From: Lampris incognitus
Lineage: Eukaryota > Chordata > Actinopteri > Lampriformes > Lampridae
Assembly: GCF_029633865.1 (NCBI RefSeq)
Contig: NC_079214.1
Location: 26,944,224 to 27,008,223, forward strand
DNA: 64,000 bases
Direction: 5' to 3'
Positions 8,839 to 59,936 of the stretch are shown here, piece by piece (position 1 is the first letter of the stretch; every line of letters begins with the position of its first letter). The translations under genes and the position numbers were made by a program. The notes beneath the pieces were generated by a model. It did not search any database, was not told where the DNA came from, and saw nothing but the letters and a program-made list of their open reading frames with translations.

Positions 8839-9165
8839 TGTAGCGAAGTTGCTACCACGTCAGAATTGTGCCAATTGTCCTGTTTTACCCATCAGGCACT
8901 GCGTGCAGATTGTCAGTTGTTATTAAATGTTTTGTAAGTGTTTTATGTGGTTTTATGTGTTTATGTGATTACTATTTGTTGTGGTGTAATTGCAGCTGTC
9001 ATTCTGTTGTGTTGTGTAACCTTGTAACTGAAACCCTGAAAAACTTTGTTGTTCGAGTTGATGACACCCATGTATCGTGTCACATTTCGGATAGTCCTTT
9101 TTTCTGTGTGAGTTCAATAAAGGGGCTTCAAAGTTATTTTTGTTGTTGCCTTTATGTTCGTCACA
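8839..9165 (+). repeat. Gypsy-A 5' LTR
   Basis: This 327-bp repeat is paired with 16229-16555 and differs by scattered substitutions. It includes AATAAAG near 9117 as a likely polyadenylation signal and ends CACA just before the primer binding site. Confidence 0.9.
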
Positions 9166-9207
9166 CTGGTGTCAGAAGTGGGATTGCAGCCAATACTCAA
9201 ATCGAAG

Positions 9208-10159: not shown

Positions 10160-10352
10160 TGTTATGTCTGCACACATCGACAGTGCTGCATTTGAGTTGG
10201 TGCTGTTCTATTGTGCTGGGATCGATTGGTGATGCCTGCGGGCTCTAGGTTGTTTGATCGGGTCTGCCTGTGATGCTGTGTCAGTCTAAATAAAGAATGC
10301 AACGTAGCGGTTGTGTCGAGCGACAGCGCTGTGTCCTGACGTGATTTCTAAA

Positions 10353-11805
10353 TGTAACCCTGTGGTTAAATTATAGGCCTTAGATATATTATATTGCACT
10401 ATTAGATAAGAGTTTGGCCTATGTTTGTTATTTTGTATACCTTTTGAATATGAATATATATTGTTGATATTGTTCTGCAAAACAGTTGTTTACCAATGTG
10501 AAATGCATTTGCTTTAGTGTTGAAACTTACCATTGTTGTGATTGGTTGGCTGTGGAGAGAATACCTTACCTTGAATGTGATTGGTTGAGAGGGCAGCGGA
10601 AAACGTCAGCACGAGCAGACTGGACGGGGAGAAAGAGGTCTCTCGTCCCTTGGGTGAGCAACGGAGCAGTTTGATGTCGAGTTGTTATATGCTATTTTGC
10701 GGTGAGAGAAATGAAATTGAAGTTTAGTGAACAGTGATGTGTGCGGGTGTCTGACAGAGACCCATCCCGGGAACTGTTTGTGTGGATTTGGGAGACAAAC
10801 TGACTACTCGTCAGTCCCATATGTGAACCCAGCGACGTTACAGAGCGAGCGAGCCAGTCGGTGTTCGTTGTTAGCACAGCAAGACGGGCGAATGGACTGG
10901 ATGCGGCGAGGGGCTCTCCCCACAGTGAGTCGGGCCGTCTTCTAGTTTAGCGAAGTAACGTTATCAGTTACAGTGTAGTGGTGGGTTCATGCGACCATCG
11001 AGGAACGCAGAAGGAGTCGTCTGTTGCCGTGTTGTGCTGCCGAGGCGAGCGCATGGTTTGACCGTGAGATGGGGCTAACGGCTAACTAGCCAGTTAGCTA
11101 GGATGGCTGCCGGCCTGACGTTCGCTGCTGCACTGAGACGAAGAGGAGCATTCATTGTGAGTACAAGCCGGATGTGCGGGCTTCCAAGGGGAGCAAAGAG
11201 GGCTGTTTAGGGTCCCAACGTACCCGATAAAGAAACAGTCCTGCAACTGGGGGTTGACTTTCTTTTATTTTATTGCCGGCTTAGTTATAGGGTTATTGAG
11301 CTGTATGCTAATGTGTTAGTCTGATTAATTTGTGTATATCTGAATGCAGATGCTTGTTAGCCATTGAGGCTTATCCCTTTCATTCATTCTAATAATTATT
11401 ACTCATAATACATTTGTATATATAATTCTATGTACCTGTGTGAGTGTGGATTATTCATGTGTGTTTATTCCTGTGGTGTCTAGGCTATGGTAAGTGACAT
11501 GTTGAGACAACCTTAAAGGGCTAGTCCACCATTTTAATATGTTACTCGGTGACACATTGCGGTGTCTAGACCATGTTAGATTGCCTTAAAGGGGTCATAT
11601 GCCATATTTGAGCGCCTTAAAGGGGTAGTCAACCTTTTTAGTTGGAGTTACCAGATGACACTGTAAGACATTTAGAGCCTTTAGAACATACTTTAAACAC
11701 ATAAGAAGCGAAGTTAACATACTTCAATAGTTTATTGGATACCGAGTTGTATAGAGAACTCAGGAGCATTGTCCTTGACAGTTAAAAGGGATAGATAGCG
11801 CTACA
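10353..11805 (+). mobile_element. Solo-LTR-like insertion (1453 bp) inside the Gypsy-B1 5' LTR
   Basis: The Gypsy-B LTR is interrupted after TTTCTAAA at 10352 and resumes with TAAATACAATA at 11806. The inserted DNA starts TGTAACCCTG and ends AGCGCTACA, with a 4-bp target duplication TAAA on both sides. It has no long open frame. The TG..CA ends, short duplication and lack of coding are those of a solo LTR. Orientation is inferred from its start resembling the solo LTRs at 54290 and 62851 read on their minus strand. Confidence 0.7.
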
Positions 11806-11828
11806 TAAATACAATATTGGCGACGAGG

Positions 11829-14800
11829 ATGGCTGATATCTCTCTCCCACCACCTGCCCCCTTCCTGGCATTACCTGGCGAGCCTCCGGTACCATGGACT
11901 CGCTGGCTATATAGTTTTGAAAATTACATCATCGCCTCAGGGCTTGACGACGTGAGCCAGGCTAGGAAGATGGCTCTGTTGCTACACTGCTTGGGAGCAG
12001 AGGGCCATCGTGTGCTCGGGACTCTGGGGAACGTCACAAACTTTGATGAAGCTGTGGGACTTATGAGCACCCATTTCGCTGCTCCACAGAGTGCCCTCCT
12101 TCGGCGATTTATATTCCGTCAGTGACACCAACTGCCTGGTGAGTCTGTGCAGCAGTATGTAGCTAATTTGCGAGGGTTAGCTAGCTCATGCAAGTTTGGC
12201 GCGCTTCAGGATGAGATGGTTCGCGACCAGCTAATCGAACACACCAACAATGCAAAGGTGCGTGAGACTCTCCTGCTGGAAAAAGACGATCTGCTGCTGT
12301 CCAGAGCATTTACCATCGCACTACAGGTTGAGGGAGCAGCTGAGTGTGCTGCTATGCTAAATACACAGCAAGTGGCCACCTCCAGTCAAGCTGCCAACGA
12401 CTCCTCCCTCTACTCACGGCTGCCCCTCGGGACGCAACCCAGCCAGAGCGAGGTGGGCGCCGACTCCACTGGGGACGTCTTGCAACTGCAACGACGGCGT
12501 TCTCGGCCCCGCCCTCAACAATCCTGTGGTAACTGTGGATCTCGGTCTCATGTTTCAAGGGCTCAGAACTGCCCTGCCCGTGGCCAGACATGCCGTAGCT
12601 GCGGTAAGCAAAATCACTTTGCCAACGTCTGTCGATCTTTCCCGGCTGGGTCAGAGGGCCACACCCCCCAGTCTTCAACCGCCGTCATTCACAAGGTGAG
12701 CTCTGGGCCAGTGTCATTCAAATCATGCACAGTCAACATTAATGATGTGTGCATCCCCCTGCTGTTGGACACCGGTGCAGGTGTGTCTCTCCTGAATGTT
12801 GATACCTACAGTCAATTTTTCGGTTCACTGCCACTGTCCGCACCCTCAGCTGTCCTCTGTGGGTATGGTGACTCCAAAATCGATCTGGTTGGCTCTCTCC
12901 AAGTGACTGTCCGCTATGGAACCAAGCTGGTGCCCAATGCAGTTTTAGTATCCACTGCCCATCTCAGAAGAACTCACTGCTCAGTTCTATGGCTCTGAGG
13001 TGTTCTCCAAGCTTGACCTCAGACAGGGGTACTTACAGGTGCCCCTCCACCCCAGCAGCCGAAACCTCACAGCCTTTGTGACACATGCAGGAGTGTTTCG
13101 CTACACCAGGATGCCTTTCGGTCTCAGCTCCGCCCCTAGCTGCTTCCAGAAAATCATGGTCTCAGTGCGGGCTGGCATACTGGGCGTGGCCATTTATCTG
13201 GATGATATAGTGGTACACGGGCCCACCAGTGAAATCCACGACAAGCACCTCAACATGGTCTTCGCAGCCCTGTCCAAGCACAAGCTAACTCTCAATGCTG
13301 AGAAATGTGTCCTCTCTGTGCCAGCCATCGAGTTCGTGGGGTTCCGGCTGTCAGCGAGCGGTGTAACTCCACTACAATCCAACGTGGACGCCATTCAGGC
13401 CATCCCTGAGCCCAGCTCGGCCGCCCAGGTCGCCTTCTTCCTGGGTATGACAAGTTAATACCTGAGGTTTCTTCCCCAGTACTCTGCGACCACAGCCCCC
13501 CCACGCCAGCTGCTGCATAAGGACGAGCCATGGGTGTGGTCAAAGGCATGCAGTGACGCTGTGCATGATCTCAAGACTCAACTGACTTCACCACCAGTGT
13601 TGGCTCACTTCGACATCTCCAGCTCCACCTTTGTGACCTGTGATGCATCAGCCACAGCGATAGGGGCTGTGCTGTCTCAAACCCAGAACGTTGTGGAGAA
13701 GCCCATCGCCTTCGCCTCCCGTGCCCTCAATCTGACCGAGCAGCGGTACTCCGTGGGTGAGCGTGAGGCGTTAGCCTGTATCTGGGCTTGTGAAAGGTGG
13801 CGCCTCTACCTCTATGGCCGCTCCTTTACCCTCAGGACAGATCACCAGGCCCTAACAGCGCTGCTGTCCACATCTGGGATAGGCCACAAACTCCAGAGGT
13901 TGCACCGCTGGTCGGACCGCCTCCGCCAGTACAACTTCAGCCTGCAGTTCACCCCAGGCAGAGACAATGTTGTCGCCGACCTGCTCTCTCGCTCTGTCTC
14001 CACCCCAGCTCCACAGACGGACACTGACTGTGTGGAAAAGGACATTGTCCAAATGCTACACATACCCCTTCAGGCCACTGTCTCTCTGCAGGAGCTGAGG
14101 GCAGCCTCCGAACAGGACCCTGTCCTCTCCCAGCTCCGCACCTACATCCAGAACGGCTGGCCTCACAAGGTCCCAGAGGAGCTGGCTGCGTTCGCCCGAG
14201 TCACACAGGAGCTCTCCTGCTGGAACAACACCTGCGTGGCACGTGGCTTTTGCACAGTGGTCCCAGCTGCTCTCCGTGCACGTGTTTTGAATATGGCGCA
14301 TGAAGGCCACCTGGGCATTGTGAAACTGAAACAGCGCTGCCGAGACCTGGTGTGGTGGCCGGGGATAGACGGAGATATTGAGGCTCTGGTGAAGGACTGT
14401 TCTGCCTGCCTTGTGAGTGGCAAGACTGGCCACCAGGCTCCCCCACCCCTGCAACCTCTCGCCTGGCCCTCTCAGCCCTGGGAACACCTGCAGTTGGACA
14501 TTTGTGGTGAGATCCATGGAGTTCCCCACCACCAACGCTTCATGGTGGTCGCCTACGATCTACACTCAAAATGGCCTGAACTCACCACTTCCGGCACTGT
14601 GACCTCACAGATCATCATCGACTTCCTGGACTCTCTTTTCTCTCGCTGGGGCCTCCCAAAGACCATCACCACTGACAACGGCCCTCAGCTGGTCTCTGCT
14701 GAGTTCACTGCTTATCTCAAAAGCAAGGGCATCCGTCATATACGCACTGCGTACTACCACCCCCAGACCAATGGCGGCGCTGAACGCTTTCACCAGTCAC

Positions 14801-15465
14801 TGAAGAACGGCCTCAGAGCACACATGGCCCAAGGGTGCTCTTTCACGCAGGCCATCCGTCACACTCTGCTGCACTATCAGGCCACACAGCACTCGACCAC
14901 AGGCGTCTCCCCAGCCTCTCTCATGCTAGGCCGGGAACTGTGCATGCCCCTTGACAGGCTCCGCCCCCCCACACCCCAGGCACCTCCCTCTGGGGTCAGA
15001 GCCTCAGTCACTCGTCAGCAGACGCAGATGAAGCAACGGTTTGACCAGTCAAAACGAACCAGGGTGCCAGACATCAATGTGTCAGACTGGGTCAGGGTCC
15101 GCAGGCCCCACAGGGACAATAAAATGACTTCATACTGGTCCTCTCCTCTCCAAGTCACCCGTCAGCTGGGCCCAGCCACTTACCTCCTCAGCGATGGCAC
15201 TCGGTGGCACTCCAGTCGTCTACGGAAGGTGTCAGCTCCGCCACACACAGCTGGTGACACAACCTTAGCCATTCCCTCAGCATGGCGAGATGCCCCGGGG
15301 CTTCATGCAGCTCCTACACGGGCCCCAGACATTCCTGGGCCTCAGCTTCCCCTGCCTTCTCCCTCCCCACCTCGGCCTGCCCAGCCTCAGGCTGCCTCAC
15401 GACCTGTTCGCACACGTTTACGCCCTGGCCATCTAGAGGACTTTGTGTCAACCTTTCATGTTTGA
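11829..15465 (+). pseudogene. Gypsy-B1 gag-pol (inactivated)
   Basis: One gag-pol frame starts at 11829. A TGA at 12123-12125 breaks gag. Two zinc knuckles follow (CGNCGSRSHVSRAQNC and CRSCGKQNHFANVC), then a protease motif LLLDTGAGVSLL. Compared with Gypsy-B2, 401 bp (the equivalent of 50672-51072, protease end and RT start) are deleted, which shifts the frame near 12950. The RT core with YLDD follows in 13000-13458, which ends at a TAA where B2 has a Tyr codon. RNase H and integrase (HHCC region, TDNGPQLVS, ERFHQSLKNG) read on in 13534-15465. Confidence 0.88.
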
Positions 15466-15487
15466 AATCCTGCCGGGGGGGGGGGGA

Positions 15488-15686
15488 TGTTATGTCTGCA
15501 CACATCGACAGTGCTGCATTTGATTTGGTGCTGTTCTATTGTGCTGGGATCGATTGGTGATGCCTGCGGGCTCTGGGTTGTTTGATCGGGTCTGCCTGTG
15601 ATGCTGTGTCAGTCTAAATAAATAATGCAACGTAGCGGTTGTGTCGAGCGACAGCGCTGTGTCCTGACGTGATTTCTAAATACAAT
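15488..15686 (+). repeat. Gypsy-B1 3' LTR
   Basis: It repeats the 5' LTR (10160-10352 plus 11810-11816). It ends TAAATACAAT and then joins Gypsy-A pol sequence at TTTGGCACGCCC. Confidence 0.85.
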
Positions 15687-15689
15687 TTT

Positions 15690-16203
15690 GGCACGCCCCC
15701 AGGTACTGACCTTCCCAAGATACCCGGTTTCGAGTACCTGCGGGACCTCCAACAACGTCTGGCCGAGGCACATGAGTTTGCTCGGCAGCATCAGGAACAG
15801 GCAGGTGCAAAACAAAAGCGGGCATATGCCACTCGTTGTCAGGGCCGCTCCTTCACCCCAGGAGCAAAGGTGTGGGTCTTCAAGCCAACCCGGAAGAGAG
15901 GAGTCTCCCCCAAGCTCGCCAGCCAGTGGGTGGGGCCCTGTGAGGTGTTGGAGCAGCTTTCGGATGTTGTGTACTGGGTGAAACTGTCTGTCCGGGGGCG
16001 GGTGGTAGTTCTGCACCGGGACCGTTTGGCACCTTACCGCCTCTTGGCTGAAGAACCTGTAGATCAGTTTAGGCCACCCGGGACGGTCCCTCCTACACCC
16101 ACAGGCCCTACCAACCGGACAGACAGTGGGGAACAGGGACCCGTGCCCCCGCGGCGGCGGAGACGGCTTCCCCTTCGCTATAGGGACTTTGTTGTCGGCT
16201 GAG
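15690..16203 (+). pseudogene. Gypsy-A pol C-terminal remnant (integrase C-terminus)
   Basis: The frame ending TGA at 16201-16203 encodes the end of a Gypsy polyprotein. An alpha-helical segment (LRDLQQRLAEAHEFARQHQ) is followed by the integrase C-terminal fold typical of the group (FTPGAKVWVFKPT, KLASQWVGPCEVLE, VVLHRDRLAPYR) and a basic tail. Upstream pol is absent, so the product would be only a fragment. It belongs to Gypsy-A because it runs to that element's purine tract and 3' LTR. Confidence 0.8.
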
Positions 16204-16228
16204 GACAGCGACACGCTGGAGGGGGTAA

Positions 16229-16555
16229 TGTAGCGAAGTTGCTACCACGTCAGAATTGTGCCAATTGTCCTGGTTTACCCATCAGGCACTGCGTGCAGAT
16301 TGTCAGTTGTTATTAAATGTTTTGTAAGTGTTTTATGTGGTTTTATGTGTTTATGTGATTACTATTTGTTGTGGTGTAATTGCAGTTGTCATTCTGTTGT
16401 GTTGTGTAACCTTGTAACTGAAACCCTGAACAACTTTGTTGTTCGAGTTGATGACACCCATGTATTGTGTCACATTTCGGTAAGTTCTTGTTTCTGTGCG
16501 AGTTCAATAAAGGGGCTGCAAAGTTACCTTTGTCGTTGCTTCTATGTTCGCCACA
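16229..16555 (+). repeat. Gypsy-A 3' LTR
   Basis: This 327-bp partner of 8839-9165 has the same length and the same termini. Downstream, the split LINE resumes at 16556. Confidence 0.9.
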
Positions 16556-17578: not shown

Positions 17579-17951
17579 GAGGTCCAACTATAGCCATGGC
17601 ACATGATTGGGCACCACTTCTATAGTTGTCAGCAGGTTCAGGCTATCCAGGTTCGATTCCCGGCTATGGCGGATTCCCGGCTGCCCCCTGACTTTGCTAC
17701 ATTGGTGTCAGAAGTGGGAGGGTGGGACCATGAGGCCATCGGAAGCACGTGCACCCAGAGGCGTGAGCGAGCTGATATGCTGAAGCATGGGGATGCGCTT
17801 CCTGAGGAGGGGGGTAGTGTAACGACCACTGATGATTAGACTAGCTAGCCCTTGGCTAAAGGGTCTGACCCTTCAGCTGACTGGTTAGCACAGTCGCTCA
17901 CGTTCAGGACAACACGGGTTCGATTGATGGCTGCCCCCTGAATTAGCTACA
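17575..17951 (+). mobile_element. Miniature LTR retrotransposon (TRIM-like), subfamily 2, with tRNA-like LTRs
   Basis: The 3' LTR at 17818-17951 (134 bp) starts TGTAACGACC and ends AATTAGCTACA. The 5' LTR ends GACTTTGCTACA at 17701; its start is blurred by the (TG)n run. The internal part is only 116 bp: primer site TGGTGTCAGAAGTGGGA at 17703, then ATGAGGCCATCGGAAGC and GAGCTGATATGCTGAAGC, then the purine tract GAGGAGGGGGGTAG before the 3' LTR. Both LTRs contain a tRNA-like stretch. The 5' copy has a perfect B-box GGTTCGATTCC and the 3' copy GGGTTCGATT. There is no coding frame. The internal part is clearly related to 55407-55523. Confidence 0.72.
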
Positions 17952-18735
17952 TTGGAATATATTTTGAAGCTGTGATTTCTGTCGAAGGAAGTGGTACCAA
18001 CTGAGTGACAGAGGTTTCAAACTTTATTGAGCCACACATCACTGACGCAGTAGAGGGTGTTGGGACATCCCAGAGCAATGCCTCAGTAAAGGTACCTGTG
18101 ACACAGTCTGTACAAATTTAAACCTCTTGGGCAGGACATTACATATTAACCAAGAGAGGTAAATCCAAAAGATGTTGACAGCTCTACAATTTTCATTTCT
18201 TCATAAGCATCCAATCTATAGTGACCTTTAACTTGACAGATAAACAATTTAGGCAACAAATAACTCCCTGTGAAGTGTGATCCTTTGACTGATTACATTA
18301 AAATTAATAAAATTAAAGAATGGCAAGTTGGTTACAAATGGCCCAATTTCTTTACCACAGGATACCAGCGCTCACCCTCGGTTAAAGGGCAAAGAGGTCA
18401 AGCTATTCTGGAGGACCTGAGAACGCCTCTGCTCTTATGAACTGAGGGGAGGAAGTCGGACCTGGTTCGGTGTGCACTTTATTTTCCTTTTAATTTTTCT
18501 CTCTATGACACCGAGTTGATTTTTGGGTTTTACATTGCACTAAGATCTGTTTATTCTTGGTACATGACATGAGGATGTGTTTTTATTTTCTTATTTTTCT
18601 TTCTCGCATGTGTTTTTGATGTGTGTGTTTTTTCTTCTTTTCTTCTCTAATTGTTCACCATAGTTGAGTTTGTATTGTGCAGCACAACTTGCATTGAATT
18701 TGAACTACACAGTACAGTGGGAATTGAGTTTGAAA
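17952..18735. other. Unassigned intergenic DNA
   Basis: No gene or recognisable element is seen. T-rich runs lie near 18480-18640. Confidence 0.5.
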
Positions 18736-40800: not shown

Positions 40801-43701
40801 CAGAGGAATAATTTATGTTTTACTGGTATGACTTAAATCTTAGTTTTGTGATGCTTTTGGAGGTACAACACATACAAGCTATCTTCAAATGGAGACATCA
40901 GTGCTTGCTAACAGCCTTACCTTTGTCTATAGCGCCACCAAGTCCCATTAGAAAGCCAGCAGTGTGGTACAGGGGCAGGTATATGTAAATGATATCATCT
41001 GAACGGACTCCAGAAATAGACTGCAAAAAGGTTGCCATCCACACCCTCTCATGGTTAACTATAGCTGCTTTGGGAAGGCCTACAATGTAAACAACAACAA
41101 TCAGAAATTGAAGTACAATATCTGTGACAGTGATGTATCAAATGGTGCAGCTCAATGCCCAAGTGCATGCAAGCAAAACATGCATGATCATAATAATGAA
41201 GCATCCTAAAACTAATATGATTCAAATACTATTTCAAAGTAGGAGATAAAATGTTTGATTGTGCAAGTTAGGTTTACCGGTGGTTCCTGAGGTGTAAATG
41301 TAAAGTGCAGGGCTCTTGCAAGTGATGTCGGCTCGAAGCTGAGGTGACAGAGGCTGATCTGAAGCCAGCTTGATCTTGTCAGAGAAACTCTCAATACCTT
41401 CTTTGTCACATTTCTCACTGAGGATAAACACATGGACACCCTGCTCCTGCAAGGAGGGCAACACCTCCTCGACAGCATCCTGTAACTCTTGAGGGAGATG
41501 GGCAAAAAATAGAAGCAGATTTCACACAGAATGAAAAAACATGAACACTGGGAGTGAGAGGTGGACTGAAAAGCTATCAGGGAATGATTGTGTAAAGTGA
41601 GCTGATCTTATTTTCTTGCATGGTGAAAATCAGGTGTTCAATGCAATTGAAATAGCATTTGGACATTGTTTGCTATCAAAATGCAGTTTACAGGAAAATA
41701 CAAAACTGACCAAAGGGCACTTTAATAGACCAAGATAACCAAGATAACATCACAAAGTCAGTTGACTTTTGGACTTTTTGAAGAAGAGGAAATTGAAAAG
41801 AAAAAAAAATCAAACATTTCTGCAAGGATGAAAAAAGGACGATGGAGTCATGAAAACAGATAAAAGGTGCAATGTGTACATTACAAAACAATAGCACAAT
41901 CTCAGCAGTTTTGTTTTTGTTTTTCAGTGTGAAATGCATCACATTTTCATAATGGATTTATAAGCATCCTGATGGTCAAGTTAAATAACCGTACCAATGA
42001 AGGAACTTGAGGTGCATTGCATTTAACATTGCATTTAATACAGAGGCCAAAACTCATCAGTTCTTATGTGTTTTATTGATGCTTCTAAAGCTTTTGATTG
42101 TGTTAATCATAGAAAATTGTTTGTTAAATTGAGTCAAAGAGGGGTGCCTAAATACATTGTGAGAATTCTGGCTTATTGGTATGCCCACCAGACTATGCAA
42201 GTGAAATGGGGTAATAGTGTTTCAGCCCCATTTGGAGGATTAGAAATGGTGTCAGCCAAGGGGGAATTCTGTCTCCAGTTCTCTACAATTTATATATTGA
42301 TGATTTGTCCAAGCAGCTGCAAGCCTGTAACACTGAGTGCATGACTGGTAATACCTTGGTGAACCATATTGTGTATGCAGATGACCTTGTCATCCTTAGT
42401 CCCTATAGCGCTGGTCTCCAGCAGCTCCTTGATATATGTCCTGTGTATGGTGTGGAGCATGATATCAAATACAATGTTAGTAAGAGTGTTGTCATGATCT
42501 GCAGAACCAAAGAGGTCAATCATCTAAAATTTCCTGGTTTTAAATTGTCTGATAATCTTGTGGTATGTCACAAGGTGAAATATCTTGAACATTATATTAC
42601 TGAACAAATGACAGATGATATTTATAGGCAATGCTGCATGATGTATGCACAAGCAAACACTGTCACGCAAGATTGGTATGTGTTCAGTTAGTGTGAAGAT
42701 GTCTCTGATCAGAGCATATTGTACAACACTCTATACTGCACGCCTGTGGTCAAACTATAAAAAAGCAAGCTTACAGAGGCTTAGAGTAGCTTATAATGAT
42801 GCTATGAGAATACTACTAAAAAGACCTAGATGGTGTAGTGCAAGTGAAATGTTTGTGGCTGCAGCAGTCAGTACCTTTCAGGCTCCTCTAAGAAATTTTA
42901 TGTATAAATTTATTTGCCAGCTCAATGACTCTGATAATGTAATCATCAAGAGTTTAACTAGTATAAGATTCAGTGCCACACACTACCAATCCCGGCAGTG
43001 GGACCACTGGTATAGCTGCCTTCTTTTAACACACTGACTTGTTCCATTTATGTTATTTTATTGTGTTTACTCTGTATATTGTCTAGGGTTTGTCTTTTAC
43101 CTATTTGTCTTTGTGTTATGGACCCCGAGTCTGCAATAAAGTTTTGAATTGAATTGAATTGAATTGAATTGAATAACATGTCAATCACATTGCCCAATGA
43201 CTCCTGGCCTCCTCCTAGCAGCTTACCAGCAGCGGCAACGAGGACTTTGGCGTCGCAGCAGGAGAAGCAGTGCAGCAGAGATTTGGATCTGATGTTGGAG
43301 TTGAGCAGGGCGGCTGTGCATCCCAACTTGGCGATGCCGAGCCACATCCAGATAAAGAACGGCTCGTTGCCCAAGAAGAGAGCCACACTGTCCCCTGCTT
43401 TCACACCGGCATGCGTTTGCAAAGCCCGGGCCACTTTGTTGCTTTGCTCATCGGCGTCTCCATACGTGTAGGTGCTATTCTCAAACACGATGAACGGTTT
43501 CTGCGGACGCGCCGCCACTCTATCTAGAAAGCGATCCAAAAGGCTGTAAAACGGTTTTTGTTTTCTGTATCGTCCGAATCGGACTCCCATTATAATGCAC
43601 CTGAACGCGTGTTTCAGGTCTTTGAAAACGTAAGGATTCCTTACGTAAAGCAACAATGGCAAAATTGCCAAACCAGCAAGTAAGGTATATATGATATGCA
43701 T
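31857..43701 (-). CDS. slc27a2: Very long-chain acyl-CoA synthetase / fatty acid transport protein 2
   Basis: This ER and peroxisome membrane enzyme activates very-long-chain fatty acids to CoA esters. Ten exons on the minus strand: 43701-43227, 41487-41278, 41079-40921, 40486-40362, 39654-39460, 39202-39112, 39016-38818, 38688-38591, 32289-32159, 32030-31857. Phases agree throughout, 1857 nt, 618 residues (human SLC27A2: 620). The N-terminal membrane segment is [17 protein letters not shown]. The AMP-binding signature [14 protein letters not shown] spans the exon 2/3 border. FATP motifs include [46 protein letters not shown] and [12 protein letters not shown] chose the start at 43701 because it places the membrane segment first; the frame is open further upstream to 43827. 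Intron 7 has a GC donor. Synteny with hdc supports A2 over other SLC27 members. Confidence 0.95.
33935..35188 (-). pseudogene. L2-type LINE reverse transcriptase
   Basis: This open frame of 417 codons is part of a longer ORF2. Reverse-transcriptase blocks: [51 protein letters not shown] (catalytic YADD), [17 protein letters not shown] and [13 protein letters not shown]. The C-terminal domain ends [20 protein letters not shown]. The frame is open upstream past the first Met ([17 protein letters not shown] near 35280). Since the endonuclease is frameshifted, the whole ORF2 is a pseudogene even though this section is uninterrupted. Confidence 0.88.
36190..36610 (-). pseudogene. L2-type LINE endonuclease domain (frameshifted)
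   Basis: Minus-strand frames give APE-type endonuclease motifs: [20 protein letters not shown] near 36600, then [20 protein letters not shown] and [20 protein letters not shown] in another frame. At least one indel separates them near 36470-36490. Confidence 0.75.
36989..38244 (-). repeat. Tandem monomers at the L2 5' end
   Basis: CACCCAATTGGCCAAAGAGG recurs at 36989, 37491 and 37992, giving periods of 502 and 501 bp. The units are highly similar along their length (for example GATCCCACTAGGAACCAGCA in units 1 and 2). The third unit is cut at 38244, which is the 5' end of the element. Confidence 0.9.
39845..40288 (-). mobile_element. tRNA-derived SINE in slc27a2 intron 4
   Basis: This is a nearly full-length reversed copy. 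Read on the minus strand it starts GGGGTGTCCGGGTAGCATAG (40287 downward), has a B-box-like GTTCGAATCCC, continues through CCTCTGGTCGGTCGG and AGGTGAAAAGAAGTGGCTGG, and ends in an A-rich tail at about 39849. It lies between exons 5 and 4. Confidence 0.85.
41488..42054 (-). other. slc27a2 intron 1, nothing recognised
   Basis: A/T-rich intronic DNA upstream of the LINE insertion. No element is identified. Confidence 0.5.
42055..43172 (+). mobile_element. 5'-truncated LINE, antisense in slc27a2 intron 1
   Basis: Three overlapping plus-strand frames (42066-42344, 42305-42691, 42645-43037) encode successive parts of one LINE reverse transcriptase with frameshifts between them: [40 protein letters not shown] (catalytic YADD) and [20 protein letters not shown]. 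The 3' end CTGCAATAAAGTTTTGAATT is followed by a (GAATT)n tail to 43172. It lies opposite to the host gene. Clade not assigned. Confidence 0.85.
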
Positions 43702-44279
43702 ACTTATGCTATATTCCGCATGAAAGACGATCTGGACTTTTGGTGCACTACGTAGGGTCCTCTGGCATACACACTTCTCTATTTTGTCCGACCTTTGAGC
43801 TCTTCTCTGCAAGTGGGTGTAGACCAAAGCTCAGCCAATAGCCGACAGTGGTGACTGTTGGGGTCTCGGTTTGAGGTTGGAGCCAAGTACAGAAAACAGC
43901 AGACGGAAACCAGGCTTTAAATTCAGTCTTTACTTGACTTGAGAGACTAAATCAGGGACGAACAAGGGGTGGTATACAAAACAACTAAGAAGATCAAAAC
44001 AAAGGGGGAGAAGGTCTTAAAGAAAGGAAAAATACTTGCAAGGCAAGAGAACTATGAACCTCGAACGGCGTATCCAAAGAGCCGTGAAAACCGAGCAAAG
44101 GTGTAACTGTGCCAAAGTAGGGTTAGGGTGACAATAATACAGTGATTCGTGACTGGGCGTGAATAATGGGTGAAGGGTGATATCTAGTGGTAATCTCGGG
44201 TAGTGCATCCCACACTTGTGACAGGTGACGTTGCAACTCGGTTTGGTTCAAGTTGCAATTCGGTTGCAACTGTATTTTA

Positions 44280-45319: not shown

Positions 45320-45323
<4 letters not shown>

Positions 45324-45459
45324 ACGTGCATGGATAAGAAGACACGCGCCTGACCCCTTAGTCGAGCAGTTAGCGATGTCTCCTGCGGTGCGGGCGCTAC
45401 GGGTTCGCTTCCCGGCCGCGGCAGTTCCTGTGGCTGCGTTGTCCCCCGAATTCGCTACA
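45320..45459 (+). mobile_element. Solo LTR of the tRNA-bearing TRIM-like family
   Basis: The sequence from GTAACGTGCATGGATAAGAA to GAATTCGCTACA matches the LTRs at 55257-55406 and 55524-55680 (reversed there). It carries the tRNA-like module with TTAGTCGAGCAGTTAGCG and the B-box-like GGGTTCGCTTCCC. No internal region follows. It sits at the edge of the TA microsatellite, with ATATAT on its far side as well. Confidence 0.8.
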
Positions 45460-49340: not shown

Positions 49341-49541
49341 TGTTATGTCTGCACACATCGACAGTGCTGCATTTGATTTGGTGCTGTTCTATTGTGCTGG
49401 GATCGATTGGTGATGCCTGCGGGCTCTGGGTTTTTTGATCGGGTCTGCCTTTGATGCTGGGTCAGTCTAAATTAAGAATGCCACGGAGAGGTTGTGTCGA
49501 GCGACAGCACTGTGTCCTGAAGTGATTTAAAAAATACAATA
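49341..49541 (+). repeat. Gypsy-B2 5' LTR
   Basis: It pairs with 53612-53812. The two are the same length and nearly identical, suggesting a recent insertion. Confidence 0.92.
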
Positions 49542-49553
49542 TTGGCGACGAGG

Positions 49554-52500
49554 ATGGCTGATATCTCTCTCCCACCACCTGCCCCCTTCCTGGCGTTACC
49601 TGGCGAGCCTCCGGTACCATGGACTCGCTGGCTACATAGTTTTGAAAATTACATCATCGCCTCAGGGCTCGACGACGTGAGCCAGGCTAGGAAGACGGCT
49701 TTGTTGCTACACTGCTTGGGAGCAGAGGGTCATCGTGTGCTCGGGACTCTGGGGAACGTCACAAGCTTTGACGAAGCTGTGGGACTTATGAGCACCCATT
49801 TCGCTGCTCCACAGAGTGCCCTCCTTCGGCGATTTATATTCCGTCAGCGACACCAACTGCCTGGTGAGTCTGTGCGGCAGTAAGTAGCTAATTTGCGAGG
49901 GCTAGCTAGCTCATGCAAGTTTGGCGCGCTTCAGGACGAGATGGTTCGCGACCAGCTAATCGAACACACCAACAACGCAAAGGTGCGTGAGACTCTCCTG
50001 CTGGAAAAAGACGATCTGCTGCTGTCCAGAGCAATTACCATCGCACTACAGGTTGAGGGAGCAGCTGAGTGTGCTGCTATGCTAAATACACAGTTAGTGG
50101 CCACCTCCAGTCAAGCTGCCAACGACTCCTCCCTCTACTCACGGCTGCCCCTCGGGACGCAACCCAGCCAGAGCGAGGCGGGCGCCGACTCCACCGGGGA
50201 CGTCTTGCAACTGCAACGACGGCGTTCTCGGCCCCGCCCTCAACAGTCCTGTGGTAACTGTGGGTCTCGGTCTCATGTTTCAAGGGCTCAGAACTGCCCT
50301 GCCCGTGGCCAGAAATGCCGTAGCTGCGGTAAGCACAATCACTTTGCCAACGTCTGTCGATCTTCCCCGGCTGGGTCAGAGGGCCACACCCCCCAGTCTT
50401 CAACCGACGTCATTCACAAGTTGAGCTCTGGGCCAGTGTCATTCAAATCATGCACAGTCAACATTAATGATGTGTGCATCCCCCTGCTGTTGGACACCGG
50501 TGCAAGTGTGTCTCTCCTGAATGTTGATACCTACAGTCAATTTTTCGGTTCACTGCCACTGTCCGCACCCTCAGCTGTCCTCTGTGGGTATGGTGACTCC
50601 AAAATCGATCTGGTTGGCTCTCTCCATGTGGCTGTCCGCTATGGAACCAAGCTGGTGCCCAATGCAGTTTTTCATGTGGCACGCCGTGGGGCCAACCTGA
50701 TGGGCCTGGACCTGTTCTCCGCTCTGGGGTTCTCCCTCTTAGACACAAGGGGGGCAGCAATCCTGACTGTTGCCACACCTTGGCAGCAGAAGTGGCCATC
50801 GCTGTTTGTGGGGCTGGGCTGCCTCTCCGCCTTCGCCCATCAACCTCTCCTCAACCCTGCTGTGAAATCTGTCATCCAACCACTGCGCCGCATCCCGTTG
50901 GCTCTCCATGATGGGGTCTCCGCCGAGCTGCAACAACTGCTGGAAGCTGGCATCATTGAACCGGTGGACGCGTCACCTTGGGTCTCAAACCTCGTGGTGG
51001 CTAAGAAGAAGTCGGGGGGCCTGCGTGTCTGCGTCGATCTACGTGCAGTAAATAAGGCAGTGGTCCCTGATAAGTATCCACTGCCCACCTCAGAAGAACT
51101 CACTGCTCAGTTCTATGGCTCTGAGGTGTTATCCAAGCTCGACCTCAGACAGGGGTACTTACAGGTGCCCCTCCACCTCAGCAGCCGAAACCTCACAGCC
51201 TTTGTGACACATGCAGGAGTGTTTCGCTACACCAGGATGCCTTTCGGTCTCAGCTCCGCCCCTAGCTGCTTCCAGAAAATCATGGTCTCCGTGCGGGCTG
51301 GCATACTGGGCGTGGCCATTTATCTGGACGATGTAGTGGTACACGGACCCACCAGTGAAATCCACGACAAGCGCCTCAACATGGTCTTCGCAGCCCTGTC
51401 CAAGCACAAGCTAACTCTCAATGCTGAGAAATGTGTCCTCTCTGTGCCAGCCATCGACTTCGTGGGGTTCCGGCTGTCAGCGAGCGGTGTAACTCCACTA
51501 CAATCCAACGTGGACGCCATTCAGGCCATCCCTGAGCCCAGCTCGGCCGCCCAGGTCGCCTCCTTCCTGGGTATGACAAGTTACTACCTGAGGTTTCTTC
51601 CCCAGTACTCTGCGACCACAGACCCCCTGCGCCAGCTGCTGCGTAAGGACGAGCCATGGGTGTGGTCAAAGGCATGCAGTGACGCTGTGCGTGATCTCAA
51701 GACTCAACTGACTTCACCACCAGTGTTGGCTCACTTCGACATCTCCAGCTCCACCTTTGTGACCTGTGACGCATCAGCCACAGCGATAGGGGCTGTGCTG
51801 TCTCAAACCCAGAACGGTGTGGAGAAGCCCATTGCCTTCGCCTCCCGTGCCCTCAACCTGACCGAGCAGCGGTACTCCGTGGGTGAGCGTGAGGCGTTAG
51901 CCTGTATCTGGGCTTGTGAAAGGTGGCACCTCTACCTCTATGGCCGCTCCTTCACCCTCAGGACAGATCACCAGGCCCTGACAGCGCTGCTGTCCACATC
52001 TGGGACAGGCCACAAACCCCTGAGGCTGCACCGCTGGTCTGACCGCCTTCGCCAGTACAACTTCAGCCTGCAGTTCACCCCAGGCAGAGACAATGTTGTC
52101 GCTGACCTGCTCTCTCGCTCTGTCTCCACCCCAGCTCCACAGACGGATACTGACTGTGTGGAAAAGGACATTGTCCAAATGCTACACACACCCCTCCAGG
52201 CCACTGTCTCTCTGCAGGAGCTGAGGGCAGCCTCCGAACAGGACCCTGTCCTCCCCCAGCTCCGCACCTACATCCAGAACGGCTGGCCTCACAAGGTCCC
52301 AGAGGAGCTGGCTGCGTTCGCCCGAGTCAGACAGGAGCTCTCCTGCTGGAACGACACCTGCGTGGCACGTGGGTTTTGCACAGTGGTCCCAGCTGCTCTC
52401 CGTGCACCTGTTTTGAATACGGCGCATGAAGGCCACCTGGGCATTGTGAAACTGAAACAGCGCTGCCGAGACCTGGTGTGGTGGCCGGGGATAGACAGAG

Positions 52501-53590
52501 ATATTGAGGCTCTGGTGAAGGACTGTTCTGCCTGCCTTGTGAGTGGCAAGACTGGCCACCAGGCTCCCCCACCCCTGCAACCTCTCGCCTGGCCCTCTCA
52601 GCCCTGGGAACACCTACAGTTGGACATTTGTGGTGAGATCCATGGAGTTCCCCACCACCAACGCTTCATGGTGGTCGCCTACGATCTACACTCAAAATGG
52701 CCTGAACTCACCACTTCCGGCACTGTGACCTCACAGATCATCATCGACTTCCTGGACTCTCTTTTCTCTCGCTGGGGCCTCCCAAAGACCATCACCACTG
52801 ACAACGGCCCTCAGCTGGTCTCTGCTGAGTTCGCTGCTTATCTCGAAAGCAAGGGCATCCGTCATATACGCACTGCGTACTACCACCCCCAGGCCAATGG
52901 CAGCGTTGAACGTTTCCACCAGTCACTGAAGAACGGCCTCAGAGCACACATGGCCCAAGGGTGCTCTTTCATGCAGGCCATCCGTCACACTCTGCTGCAC
53001 TATCGGACCACACAGCACTCGACCACAGGCGTCTCCCCAGCCTCTCTCATGCTAGGACGGGAACTGTGCATGCCCCTTGACAGGCTCCGCCCCTCCACAC
53101 CTCAGGCACCTCCCTCTGGGGTCAGAGCCTCAGTCACTCGTCAGCAGACGCGGATGAAGCAACGGTTTGACCAGTCAAAACGAACCAGGGTGCCAGACAT
53201 CAATGTGTCAGACTGGGTCAGGGTCCGCAGGCCCCACAGGGACAATAAAATGGCTTCATACTGGTCCTCTCCTCTCCAAGTCACCCGTCAGCTGGGCCCA
53301 CCACTTACCTCCTCAGCGATGGCACTCGGTGGCACTCCAGTCGTCTACGGAAGGTGTCAGCTCCGCCACACACAGCTGGTGACACAACCATAGCCATTCC
53401 CTCAGTATGGCGAGACGCCCCGGGGCTTCATGCAGCTCCTACACGGGCCCCAGACATTCCTGGGCCTCAGCTCCCCCTGCCTTCTCCCTCCCCACCTCGG
53501 CCCGCCCAGCCTCAGGCCGCCCCGCGACCTGTTCGCACACGTTTACGCCCTGGCCACCTAGAGGACTTTGTGTCAACCTTTCATGTTTGA
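49554..53590 (+). pseudogene. Gypsy-B2 gag-pol, one stop and one late frameshift
   Basis: A single gag-pol frame begins at 49554. One in-frame TAA (49881-49883) interrupts gag; Gypsy-B1 has a Tyr codon there. The frame then stays open for 1166 codons. Order: capsid-like region, zinc knuckles (CGNCGSRSHVSRAQNC, CRSCGKHNHFANVC), protease LLLDTGASVSLL, RT with FSKLDLRQGYLQVPL-type block and YLDDVVVHG, RNase H (VTCDASATAIGAVLSQ), integrase zinc finger (HEGHLGIVKLKQRC, CSAC) and DDE core (LDICGEI, TDNGPQLVS, SVERFHQSL). One base missing near 53300 shifts the last 80 codons, which continue at 53354-53590. The pol resembles Mag-like Ty3/Gypsy elements. Confidence 0.92.
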
Positions 53591-53611
53591 AATCCTGCCG
53601 GGGGGGGGGGA

Positions 53612-53812
53612 TGTTATGTCTGCACACATCGACAGTGCTGCATTTGATTTGGTGCTGTTCTATTGTGCTGGGATCGATTGGTGATGCCTGCGGGCTCTGG
53701 GTTTTTTGATCGGGTCTGCCTTTGATGCTGGGTCAGTCTGCATACAGAATGCCACGGAGAGGTTGTGTCGAGCGACAGCGCTGTGTCCTGAAGTGATTTA
53801 AAAAATACAATA
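53612..53812 (+). repeat. Gypsy-B2 3' LTR
   Basis: It pairs with 49341-49541 and is followed at once by the target duplication GTCCC. Confidence 0.92.
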
Positions 53813-55011: not shown

Positions 55012-55256
55012 CACCGGCGAGCCCGGGAACGTAAACCACGCCCCCAGCTCACAGTCCTGCTGGGTGAGAGACATAGCCCCTAGTGTCCGCCACAATATCT
55101 CCATTTTGAAGTTTAAGAAAAGATGAACAAAGGCATTTGTTTCTCAATGCAGTAAGTTCAAACTGATAGATAGTGGAACAAACAAGTCTATAATGTGACT
55201 GTTTTGTTTTTTGTTCTGTGGAGAAAGGGGGATGTAGTATATGGGTTTGAAGATAT

Positions 55257-55680
55257 TGTAGCGAATTCGGGGGCCAACGCAACCACAGGAACTGCCGCGG
55301 CCGGGAAGCGAACTTGTATCGCCCGCACCGCAGGAGACATCGCTAATCGCTAGACTAAAGGGTCAGAACCGCCAGCCAGCGTGTCTACTTACCCATGCAC
55401 GTTACACTACCCCCCTCCTTCGGGAAGCGCGTCCCCGCGCTTAAGCATATCAGCTCCTTCACGCCTCAGGGCGCATACGCTTCCGATGGCCTTACGGTCG
55501 CTCCATCCCACTTCTGACACTAATGTAGCGAATTCGGGGGACAACGCAACCACAGGAACTGTCGCGGCCGGGAAGCGAACTTGTATCACCCGCACCGCAG
55601 GAGACATCGCTAACCGCTAGACTAAAGGGTCAGACCCGCCAGCCAGCGGCCAGCGTGTCTACTAATCCATGCACGTTACA
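55257..55680 (-). mobile_element. Full-length TRIM-like miniature LTR element with tRNA-like LTRs
   Basis: On the minus strand: LTR 55680-55524 (157 bp), internal 55523-55407 (117 bp), LTR 55406-55257 (150 bp). The LTRs start TGTAACGTGCATGG and end GAATTCGCTACA. The internal part opens with a primer site TAGTGTCAGAAGTGGGAT, one base from the tRNA-Leu type, and closes with the purine tract GGAGGGGGGTAG. It has no coding frame. A 4-bp target duplication ATAT flanks it (55253-55256 and 55681-55684). Each LTR contains a tRNA-like module with A-box TTAGTCTAGCG and B-box GTTCGCTTCCC spaced about as in a tRNA gene. Confidence 0.85.
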
Positions 55681-55891
55681 ATATACACGGAGTAATACGG
55701 TGGTGAGCCTATACTATAGGTAATACGACGAAAGGCCAGTAGGCGTGCTCTCAGGCGGATGTACGTAAGTAGAACTGAAGTCAGTTAGGATACGCATACA
55801 CGGTTGTTGTTCTTTGTTCCTGAATACAGTTCATAAAAAGGACTACCCGCCAGTATCCTCATCAGTATAAACCACAACACTATTTTTTACT

Positions 55892-56115
55892 CAAATCGCC
55901 ACGGGTTTAGGATCCATTAACAGTGGTCGTCAATTGCTACTGTTAACACAATTTATGTCCACTCCTATCAAATCCCCACGTGTTTAGTATCCATTAACAT
56001 TGGTCGTCAGTAGCTACTGTTAACACTGCCCACTCCTATCCTTTACCCAAATCGCCACGGGTTTAGGATCCATTAACAGTGGCCACCAGTTGCTACTATT
56101 AACACTCAGTATTCC
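55892..56115 (+). repeat. Three tandem repeats of about 77 bp
   Basis: CAAATC(G/C)CCACGGGTTTAG GATCCATTAACA starts at 55892, 55969 and 56048. Each copy continues into GTGG(T/C)(C/A)-(T/C)CA-TTGCTACTGTTAACAC-like sequence. The same array is present in unit 2 near 58340-58565. Confidence 0.85.
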
Positions 56116-56314
56116 ACTTCACAATTGACCCGAGTCTGTCTTTCCTTTCATTTATACATGTCAAGGGCTTGGGAAGTTTGTCTGGAGAGATTACATAAAA
56201 GCAAAGTCAAAGAGAGACACAATATGTGATATATTTATTTAGTTAAGCCGCTTGCACTTTATTTGCCTTCATTATTTTATGTCTGTGAATGTTCTCATTC
56301 ATCCAGGTCACGGC

Positions 56315-56422
56315 TATCCAAAGGAGTTGAATCAAGTGCAACTGGATATATACCAGGAGTTGAATCAAGTGCAACTGGATATATACCAAGTCCAGTTGCA
56401 CTTGATTCAACTCCTTTGGATA
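56315..56422. repeat. Perfect 32-bp inverted repeat with an extra direct arm copy
   Basis: The arms 56315-56346 and 56391-56422 are exact reverse complements (core GAGTTGAATCAAGTGCAACT). A further direct copy of the left arm core lies between them at about 56357-56380. The same structure is at 58763-58870. Confidence 0.92.
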
Positions 56423-57484
56423 CTTCATTATTTTAGTTTTTTGTTTTCTGTCCGAAACCCATGAGGGGGAAGGATGAAGATTTTGTAGGTTTCTTATTTA
56501 ATAAGAAAATGTCTCTCTCGCTCGCCCCCCCCCCTCTCGCTCTCTCTCTCTCTCTCTCCAACGCTCTCACCCTGAATATGCAATAAGAAAAATCTTCTTG
56601 ATGAGTCTGTTGTTTACCTTTTTTATTATTTGTTAACTGGGTAAACTTGCTGATTGCTACAATATTTACTGAAATACTGTACTTGCATTTGGAAAGGTAC
56701 ACTTAATTTGCAAAGACTACAGAATGGTACAAAAGGAGCCAGCTAACCTGCATCAAGATCACATCATAGAGTTGTGCAAGAGGAGACATAAACCTACATC
56801 AAACCGTATCACTAATGAAAATAATATATTATGGGTACATTGGTAGACAGTTTAATTAATAGTATTTGGTAGACAGTGTAATTGTCCATGGTGGGAATGT
56901 GTGTGAATTGGTTACAAGAAAATGATTAGTCTAGTATCCTATGGACATAACATCCTCTTACACTTTGTAAGAGTTGCATGGACTCCTGTATAATTAGTCA
57001 AATGAGATATGTCAGACAAGCAAATTGAACAGCTGTGTTGTCTGTCTACTGTGGGTTACTGCATTAGCCAGTTAACTTATGATTCAACAAAACCACTGAC
57101 GTTACTGATACTGGTATCCAGCACAACTAGCAAACGTTAGGTATATCAATGGCAGACTAGCGTTAGCTGGCTAACAAGTTCACTTTTTGCAATCAATATA
57201 AACATTTAGGTAACGTTATTAGGATATCCAAAGTAACATTAATTAGCTAGTTAGCTAGCTAGCTAATATAACACAAATCATTAACATTGTTAGCTAACGT
57301 TAGTTTGCAATCACTGGTTGTTGTTAGCTAGCTAGCCAACACAGCGATAATCGCGTTGTTAGCTAGCTAAAAGGTATCAATTTGCAATTGATACACTAGT
57401 GCTGGCTAATCTTAGTTAGCAATCGCTAATTACTAAGAAGTTACTGCAGCTGGTTAGCTAGCCAGTTAATACAGCTAGCTAGGT

Positions 57485-57971
57485 CTGATCCAGCTTTTTA
57501 TCTCGTACGTTGCCACGAAGTCCTGCAACATGATCTTTTTACTGGCAGAACTTTAGCTACCTAAAATTGCGACAAGGAGGCCTTAGCCAGGAAAATATTT
57601 ACTCCGAGAAGATTGTGCCGTGACACCAGAATGACTGAAGCTAAGCTAGCAACAGCCTCGGACAAAGCTAGCATGAGTGAACACGACTACACAGATGGAT
57701 GCAACAACCGCCATAGGCGAATTTCCGAAATGCAGAGAGGCAAGGGAAGGCTTATTATTATTCATAAAGAAGCGCTACCTGATTGGCTGGTGAAACGTTG
57801 CCGCTCTAACGTTCGCGTTGCTCCTGTCAAAGCACGTGATTCCTTCGTTGCCCTGACAATGCTTGGCTAGTCAGCTACGTTAGCTAGCATAAGTTATAAC
57901 CGAGCTTCGCCCATCACATCAATATACTATATATACTTATCAAAACAACTACTTGTCCTATTTCTATATAT
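57485..57971 (+). other. Downstream flank of duplication unit 1, possible exon-like ORF
   Basis: An open frame at 57613-57870 (MTEAKLATASDKASMSEHDY; the ATG is at 57631) has no recognised relative. Its start region is repeated at 62570-62680, where the frame differs. It may be an old first exon or chance. The DNA ends at the solo LTR at 57972. Confidence 0.3.
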
Positions 57972-58128
57972 TGTAGCGAATTCGGGGGACAACGCAATCA
58001 CAGGAACTGCCGCGGCCGGGAAGCGAACCCGTATCGCCCGCACCGCAGGAGACATCGCTAACCGCTAGACTAAAGAGTAAGACCCGCCAGCCAGCGGCCA
58101 GCGTGTCTACTAATCCATGCACGTTACA
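57972..58128 (-). mobile_element. Solo LTR of the tRNA-bearing TRIM-like family
   Basis: This 157-bp LTR is nearly identical to 55524-55680, with the best-preserved tRNA-like module of the window (TTTAGTCTAGCGGTTAGCG and GGGTTCGCTTCCCGG on the minus strand). It sits at the join between the two duplication units. ATAT precedes it, but no matching duplication follows, as expected if it arose by LTR-LTR recombination. Confidence 0.85.
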
Positions 58129-59930
58129 CTATACGCGGAGTAATACGGTGGTGAGCCTATACTATAGGTAATACGACGAAAGGCCAGTAGGCGTGCTCTC
58201 AGGCGGATGTACGTAAGTAGAACTGAAGTCAGTTAGGATACGCATACACGGTTGTTGTTCTTTGTTCCTGAATACAGTTCATAAAAAGGACTACCCGCCA
58301 GTCTCCTCATCAGTATAAACCACAACACTATTTTTTACTCAAATCGCCACGGGTTTAGGATCCATTAACAGTGGTCGTCAATTGCTACTGTTAACACAAT
58401 TTATGCCCACTCCTATCAAATCCCCACGAGTTTAGTATCCATTAACATTGGTCGTCAGTAGCTACTGTTAACACTGCCCACTCCTATCCTTTACCCAAAT
58501 CGCCACGGGTTTAGGATCCATTAACAGTGGCCACCAGTTGCTACTATTAACACTCAGTATTCCACTTCACAATTGACCCAAGTCTGTCTTTCCTTTCATT
58601 TATACATGTCAAGGGCTTGGGAAGTTTGTCTGGAGAGATTACATAAAAGCAAAGTCAAAGAGAGACACAATATGTGACATATTTATTTAGTTAAGCCGCT
58701 TGCACTTTATTTGCCTTCATTATTTTATGTCTGTGAATGTTCTCATTCATCCAGGTCACGGCTATCCAAAGGAGTTGAATCAAGTGCAACTGGATATATA
58801 CCAGGAGTTGAATCAAGTGCAACTGGATATATACCAAGTCCAGTTGCACTTGATTCAACTCCTTTGGATACTTCATTATTTTAGTTTTTTGTTTTCTGCC
58901 CGAAACCCATGAGGGGGAAGGATGAAGATTTTGTAGGTTTCTTATTTAATAAGAAAATGTCTCTCTCGCTCCCCCCCCCCTCTCTCGCTCTCTCTCTCTC
59001 CACGCTCTCACCCTGAATATGCAATAAGAAAAATCATCTTGATGAGTCTGTTGTTTACCTTTTTTATTATTTGTTAACTGGGTAAACTTGCTGATTGCTA
59101 CAATATTTATTGACATACTGTACTTGCATTTGGAAAAGTACATTTAATTTGCAAAGACTACAGAATGGTACAAAAGGAGCCAGCTAACCTGCATCAAGAT
59201 CACATCATAGAGTTGTGCAAGAGGAGACATAAACCTACATCAAACCGTATCACTAATGAAAATAATATATTATGGGTATTTTGGTAGACAGTTTAATTAA
59301 TAGTATTTGGTAGACAGTGTAATTGTCCATGGTGGGAATGTGTATGAATTGGTTACAAGAAAATGATTAGTCTAGTATGCTATGGACATAACATCCTCTT
59401 ACACTTTGTAAGAGTTGCATGGACTCCTGTATAATTAGTCAAATGAGATATGTCAGACAAGCAAATTGAACAGCTGTGTTGTCTGTCTACTGTGGGTTAC
59501 TGCATTAGCCAGCTAACTTATGATTCAACAAAACCACTGACGTTACTGATACTGGTATCCAGCACAACTAGCAAACGTTAGGTATATCAATGGCAGACTA
59601 GCGTTAGCTGGCTAACAAGTTCACTTTTTGCAATCAATATAAATGTTTAGGTAACGTTATTAGGATATCCAAAGTAACATTAATTAGCTAGTTAGCTAGC
59701 TAGCTAACATAACACAAATCATTAACATTGTTAGCTAACGTTAGTTTGCAATCACTGATTGTTGTTAGCTAGCTAGTTAGCCAACATAGCGATAATCGCG
59801 TTGTTAGCTAGCTAAAAGGTAATCAATTTGCAATTGATACACTAGTGCTAGCTAATCTTAGTTAGCAATCGCTAATTACTAAGAAGTTACTGCAGCTGGC
59901 TAGTTAGCCAGTTAATACAGCTAGCTAGGT
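58129..59930. repeat. Segmental duplication, unit 2
   Basis: This is the second copy of 55681-57484, colinear throughout, with small indels such as in the (CT)n run near 58985 and the TAGC-rich part. The similarity ends at CTAGCTAGGT, where Pao-like gag sequence begins. Confidence 0.88.
58763..58870. repeat. Perfect 32-bp inverted repeat, second copy
   Basis: Arms 58763-58794 and 58839-58870, identical in structure to 56315-56422. Confidence 0.92.
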
Positions 59931-59936
59931 CCCAAT

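Follow-up and report, generated by a model that had tools for sequence, protein, structure and literature searches.

What kind of mobile element carries promoter-like boxes of the tRNA type in both of its long terminal repeats (LTRs), and which machineries would transcribe and copy it? The question is raised by a locus of Lampris incognitus that lies in a window of 64,000 nucleotides, by which we mean the whole stretch of DNA analysed (contig NC_079214.1, forward-strand positions 26,944,224 to 27,008,223). All coordinates below are positions in this window.

Anatomy and assignment of the element

The element occupies 424 bp (55257-55680) with its sense on the minus strand, and is composed of a 5' LTR of 157 bp (55524-55680), an internal part of 117 bp (55407-55523) and a 3' LTR of 150 bp (55257-55406). 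Its termini read TG...CA and it is flanked on each side by the 4-bp target-site duplication (TSD) ATAT (55253-55256 and 55681-55684). Alignment of the direct repeats 55257-55406 and 55524-55680 yielded a 128-nt block of 95% and a 35-nt block of 91% identity; the differences between the two LTRs amount to seven substitutions and a 7-bp unit, CGCTGGC, that is repeated in one LTR and single in the other. A primer-binding site (PBS) and a polypurine tract are placed at the exact borders between the LTRs and the internal part, as in Helenus elements. The PBS is of the tRNA-Leu type, starts 1 base past the 5' LTR (55505-55522, minus strand) and has one mismatch in 18 nt to TGGTGTCAGAAGTGGGAT, so that 17 of 18 positions match the 3' end of tRNA-Leu. 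The purine tract GAAGGAGGGGGGTAG adjoins the 3' LTR (55407-55421, minus strand). Among 42 related copies, 31 carry the same tract and 31 the mismatch-free 18-nt PBS form TTGGTGTCAGAAGTGGGAT. The first-pass annotation had described two LTRs, a 117-bp internal part, a primer site, a purine tract and ATAT flanks, and all of these were confirmed by the repeat alignment and the sequence anatomy. With two LTRs and no mobilisation proteins within 424 bp, the element is of TRIM size (less than about 1,000 bp).

The same annotation knew of no well-described vertebrate counterpart. This is contradicted by the description of Helenus, a group of TRIMs with tRNA-like LTRs that includes zebrafish LTR-11_DR and its relatives and that has been joined with Cassandra and Ajax under the name TRIMp3 (Kojima, 2024; PMC10886601). 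An element of this kind has thus been in print since 2024, for zebrafish and other animals. The vertebrate hosts named in that account are coelacanth, sterlet, paddlefish, zebrafish, carp, goldfish and other ostariophysans; animal Helenus elements have 4-bp TSDs, and those of vertebrates use tRNA-His, tRNA-Leu or tRNA-Lys as primers (PMC10886601). With LTR-11_DR, Helenus-1_CaAu of goldfish and relatives, as described there, the Lampris element has in common A and B boxes in the LTRs, a PBS, a purine tract and a 4-bp TSD, as well as thousands of copies, tandem arrays and a conserved internal part; for LTR-11_DR, 5,575 LTRs, 2,618 internal parts and tandem arrays are reported (PMC10886601). The window element is assigned to Helenus because its anatomy, TSD length and primer type agree with these published features. 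Its family relationship to LTR-11_DR is inferred from anatomy. A literature search covering 2024 onwards returned no account of Helenus TRIMs besides PMC10886601.

Copies throughout the genome

Searching the 1.48-Gb assembly with the whole element gave 3,687 first-look candidates, of which 40 were scored; the 40 best matches were 93-100% identical to the query. From these 40 loci, 42 copies were cut (sample 1). A search with only the internal part returned 1,845 candidates, again with 40 scored, and 32 copies were obtained at 28 of 30 loci (sample 2) after five fragments without both LTRs had been dropped. Removal of repeats left a combined sample of 64 copies. LTR cuts were extended to full length where the match stopped short, so that some LTRs, those of copies L023, L045, L051 and L067 among them, include flanking DNA.

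The order LTR-internal part-LTR was found at many loci with their own TSDs and is not unique to the window, and the search with the internal part suggested by the first-pass annotation recovered full copies with TSDs. A perfect 4-bp TSD flanks 25 of the 42 copies in sample 1 and 35 of the 64 in the combined sample; the chance that 4 bp match between different copies is 0.17. The perfect TSDs have the form RTAY in 31 of 35 cases, with A or T at position -7 in 33 of 35. Tandem arrays are present at two loci (L004 and L040).

Further traces of the family are found in the window itself. A lone LTR (57972-58128, minus strand) is 95.5% identical to the 5' LTR, and another (45321-45459, plus strand) is 81% identical to the 5' and 86% identical to the 3' LTR. 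The internal part of a diverged copy (17702-17817, plus strand; 83.8% identical, PBS at 17703) has diverged LTR pieces on either side; in the region 17600-17980 these pieces are very unlike those of the main copy and GGTTCGATT, a stricter B-box, stands on both sides. The first of the lone LTRs marks the edge of a local duplication (55521-57485 and 57969-59931, 97.5% identical) whose left edges are each no more than 3 bases away from a Helenus LTR, which suggests that LTR-mediated recombination was behind the duplication. At another locus (L025:591-695) a long inverted repeat adjoins a Helenus copy; it matches Rfam mir-548 below the gathering score on both strands and may be the remnant of a palindromic DNA transposon.

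LTR lengths of 157 and 150 bp, as in the query itself, are frequent in sample 1, where the reverse was seen in one standalone copy (L032). Since sample 2 shows the asymmetry in both directions (5' LTR about one unit longer in L042, L055 and L065, 3' LTR longer in L047 and L068), a directional 7-bp asymmetry was discarded as query bias.

A Gypsy family as candidate helper

Gypsy is the presumed helper superfamily for Helenus (PMC10886601). A candidate autonomous helper of the Gypsy type is situated in the window at approximately 8839-16555 (plus strand), with LTRs of about 327 bp that are 94.8% identical and with a second Gypsy element nested inside it (approximately 10160-15686). It carries an exact TGGTGTCAGAAGTGGGAT as PBS (9167-9184), the commonest PBS form in Helenus, after the same 1-nt spacer; its purine tract GGAGGGGGTAA, followed by TGTAGCG, precedes the 3' LTR and its flanks are ATAC and ATAT. 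Pfam returned two matches for the integrase-side frame, with an integrase C-terminal domain (PF22938) within 15636-16202, and none for the gag-side frame. Three host-gene-like frames of the window were also searched against Pfam and gave one match: the frame at 43048-43830 (minus strand) matches AMP-binding (PF00501) and is perhaps an exon of a gene of the fatty-acid transport or acyl-CoA synthetase type.

A search for the family of the candidate helper gave 644 candidates, of which 40 were scored. Flanks were taken from 30 loci, and the 27 with an exact LTR start were kept while three were dropped; loci L093 and L094 share 12 upstream bases and may represent one insertion. In 24 of the 27 copies the LTR is directly preceded by RTAY, and 26 have A or T at position -7; in the window RTAY starts at 1.6% of positions. 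A preference for RTAY may be common to fish Gypsy elements in general, the sole control being an unrelated Gypsy element at 49341-53812, for which 5-bp GTCCC flanks were read by eye. All 27 helper LTRs contain AATAAA or ATTAAA, all contain TTTT, and a TATA box, as rare here as in Helenus, is present in one. The Gypsy element at 8839-16555 thus resembles Helenus in PBS, spacer, purine-tract type, LTR end motif and RTAY preference, and differs in its longer LTRs with a poly(A) signal and in its coding frames. Because PBS and target preference are the same and the purine tracts similar, its family is, as judged from sequence, a likely candidate for the Helenus helper.

tRNA-like boxes in the LTRs

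In the 5' LTR, an A-box-like motif TAGTCTAGCGG that fits TRGYNNARNGG (55614-55624, minus strand; LTR positions 57-67) and a B-box-like motif AGTTCGCTTCC (55571-55581, minus strand; LTR positions 100-110) were recognised. The 3' LTR has the A-box-like TAGTCTAGCGA, whose last base is off consensus (55347-55357, minus strand), and again AGTTCGCTTCC (55304-55314, minus strand); these two were read from the sequence, their coordinates following from the LTR position. Both boxes reported earlier for each LTR were accordingly recovered, 32 nt apart, with the qualification that the B-box fits the relaxed pattern GTTCGNNTCC only. Among the 42 copies of sample 1, the A-box motif occurs in 36 of the 5' and 35 of the 3' LTRs; the relaxed B-box is found in 35 of the 5' LTRs and the strict form GTTCRANNC in one. 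The commonest B-box form, CGGGTTCGCTTCCCG (18 of 42 5' LTRs), of which the window B-box is a variant, could close a T-arm-like stem when read by eye. None of 20,000 dinucleotide shuffles contained the two-box pattern, which had been set after the sequence was seen.

A functional tRNA gene was ruled out, as neither a covariance model nor ARAGORN detected a cloverleaf. ARAGORN found no tRNA gene in the window or in 16 family loci, and the Rfam tRNA model gave no match in the window at gathering thresholds, none in 55200-55720 up to an E-value of 10 and none in 12 family loci up to an E-value of 1. Likeness to tRNA was further assessed by comparing copies with six human tRNA genes (Glu, Gly, Asp, Val, Lys and Ala) against 1,000 shuffles. 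For Glu and Gly, copy L036 scored higher than every one of the shuffles; it came near to this for Asp (3/1,000), and no such excess was seen for Val, Lys and Ala. The window copy is weaker than L036, its Glu score being reached by 14 and its Gly score by 3 of 1,000 shuffles. This small test favours Gly and Glu, whereas fish Helenus elements were aligned to tRNA-Val in the published account (PMC10886601).

Transcription and proposed life cycle

The reading that best accommodates these observations, to which we assign a probability of about 0.9, is that of a Helenus-type (TRIMp3) non-autonomous LTR retrotransposon which would be transcribed by RNA polymerase III (Pol III), primed by tRNA-Leu and copied by Gypsy enzymes acting in trans. 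Transcription would start just upstream of the A-box of the 5' LTR, at about LTR position 40-50, and U3 would consequently be short. Pol III would then read through into the 3' LTR and further into the flank, since 41 of the 42 copies contain no T4 terminator (TTTT in 1/42); for the window copy, the first downstream T4 is at flank base 136. tRNA-Leu would prime at the PBS, and the remainder would follow the ordinary LTR cycle, with reverse transcriptase and integrase presumably provided by a Gypsy element that has its PBS and target preference in common with Helenus, for example of the 8839-16555 family.

It is conceivable, if improbable, that the element is instead an ordinary TRIM transcribed by RNA polymerase II (Pol II), in which the A- and B-box-like motifs are the relic of a SINE or of a tRNA fragment and play no promoter role. 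In favour of Pol II are the absence of a T4 terminator from 41 of 42 copies, the lack of a tRNA fold in the searches above, the near absence of the strict B-box (1/42 5' LTRs) and the behaviour of a second LTR subfamily, B, in which the A-box pattern fits none of 29 5' LTRs. The boxes are also no more conserved than the remaining LTR: mean divergence among the 42 copies is 0.057 for the A-box, 0.028 for the B-box and 0.032 for the whole LTR. Box conservation as proof of selection was not found. Against Pol II, AATAAA or ATTAAA occurs in 0 of 42 Helenus copies compared to 27 of 27 helper LTRs, although composition alone often has this effect, and GGTTCG is retained at the B-box position of both LTR subfamilies (in 26 of 29 5' LTRs of type B), which show 74-82% identity to each other where they are paired. 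The missing terminator and poly(A) signal were considered as proof of Pol III and rejected after a composition control, in which 37% of shuffles lacked TTTT and 96% lacked a poly(A) signal.

That a single SINE insertion followed by a local tandem duplication merely mimics two LTRs, for which the window offers the 97.5% duplication starting at the right-hand LTR (55521-57485 and 57969-59931), is extremely improbable, given that dozens of unlinked loci with TSDs of their own show this order, that the tRNA-like part is present in both LTRs of most copies and that PBS and purine tract sit at the exact LTR borders.

The first-pass annotation had proposed a SINE/LTR hybrid. Of that proposal, the Pol III-type motifs in the LTRs and the copying by an LTR machinery are consistent with both the sequence and the published model; Pol III transcription itself is a prediction from the boxes, and for Helenus it is stated to be unproven (PMC10886601). 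Like Cassandra of plants, the Lampris element is a TRIM with a Pol III promoter, here a putative one, inside the LTR. The promoter of Cassandra is derived from 5S rRNA and comes with a terminator (PMC10886601), whereas the boxes of the window family are of the tRNA type and 41 of 42 copies lack a T4 terminator. With tRNA-derived SINEs the element shares A and B boxes at tRNA-like spacing, shortness and the lack of coding capacity; SINEs differ in having neither LTRs, PBS nor purine tract and in their dependence on non-LTR retrotransposons.

Copies with unlike LTRs

In the ordinary cycle the two LTRs of a retrotransposon are identical at insertion, so that agreement between them at any variable site is expected to be near 1. 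At six two-state sites, agreement in the 64 copies was 0.90, 0.75, 0.82, 0.77, 0.71 and 0.73, with random expectations of 0.77, 0.50, 0.58, 0.51, 0.58 and 0.54. In the 35 copies with perfect TSDs it was 0.94, 0.77, 0.88, 0.75, 0.74 and 0.77, with expectations of 0.84, 0.52, 0.65, 0.51, 0.61 and 0.56. Among four of the sites, disagreements show no linkage when the sites are far apart (columns 30 and 81 both disagree in 2/57) and some linkage when they are close (columns 30 and 55, 6/54), for which reason the tracts appear to be short. Divergence of the internal part was measured against the commonest letter in each column of the 117-bp alignment. In the 25 TSD copies of sample 1, the mean LTR-pair divergence of 3.9% is twice the internal 1.9%; this is the prediction of the ordinary cycle and counts against the birth of copies with unlike LTRs. 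The corresponding values for the 10 TSD copies of sample 2 are 11% and 0.1%, in a sample chosen for a near-identical internal part and with some cuts that include flank.

In seven of 40 copies from the internal-part search, one LTR belongs to subfamily A and the other to subfamily B; only two of the seven, L052 and L055, have both LTRs at full length together with a TSD, and the other five are incomplete, lack a TSD or sit in a complex locus. A B-type 5' LTR joined to the internal part, used as query, gave 5,749 candidates, 40 of which were scored, and 41 matches of at least 95% over 264-272 of 272 bases, as counted by hand from the listing. Seven of the 41 (L052, L055 and L111-L115) have no B-like match at the place of the 3' LTR. 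In these the 5' LTR is of type B and the 3' LTR of type A along its length, the two being 74-82% identical to each other, and all seven have perfect TSDs (GTAC, GTAT, ATAA, ATAC, ATAC, ATAT and ACAT). Ten further matches with a partial 3' match were all read. Three are mosaics (L116, L118 and L125), with a B-type 5' LTR, a 3' LTR that begins as B and continues as A, and no perfect TSD; one (L117) is too diverged to be placed; and in six a B-type LTR is combined with a variant of B (LTR identity 0.90-0.93, TSD in 4/6). A non-random 11 of the remaining 24 (L076 and L126-L135) are B/B copies with LTR identities of 0.94-0.99 and TSDs in 8/11. One internal site carries G in 18 of 18 B/B copies and T in 36 of 42 A/A copies, the A/A sample being query-biased. 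T is found in six of the seven B/A copies, which is what strand transfer would predict, although the query itself carried T.

The standard LTR cycle does not yield B/A insertions with perfect TSDs, and these same TSDs disfavour crossing-over between insertions. Either of two processes would suffice: gene conversion that begins in the internal part and runs on to where homology ends, or an intermolecular transfer of plus-strand strong-stop DNA at the PBS. Of these, gene conversion is the more cautious interpretation, given that there are mosaics and that disagreements at single sites are for the most part not linked. The bolder proposal, that Helenus insertions often derive from two molecules, the plus-strand strong-stop DNA of a B-type LTR switching at the PBS onto a minus strand of type A so that the LTRs are unlike at birth, we regard as rather doubtful.

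Implications

With the window element, a recently named group gains further copies. The available parts of the published account (PMC10886601) name no fish helper family and report no insertions with unlike LTRs, and the helper candidate and the unlike-LTR copies may be newer than that account. A concrete Gypsy helper candidate for a vertebrate Helenus family would make mobilisation in trans testable in cells. Insertions with unlike LTRs bear on the replication and recombination of such elements and on dating by LTR divergence; if a two-molecule origin were true, the rule that LTRs are identical at insertion would be broken and LTR divergence would be unable to date such elements.
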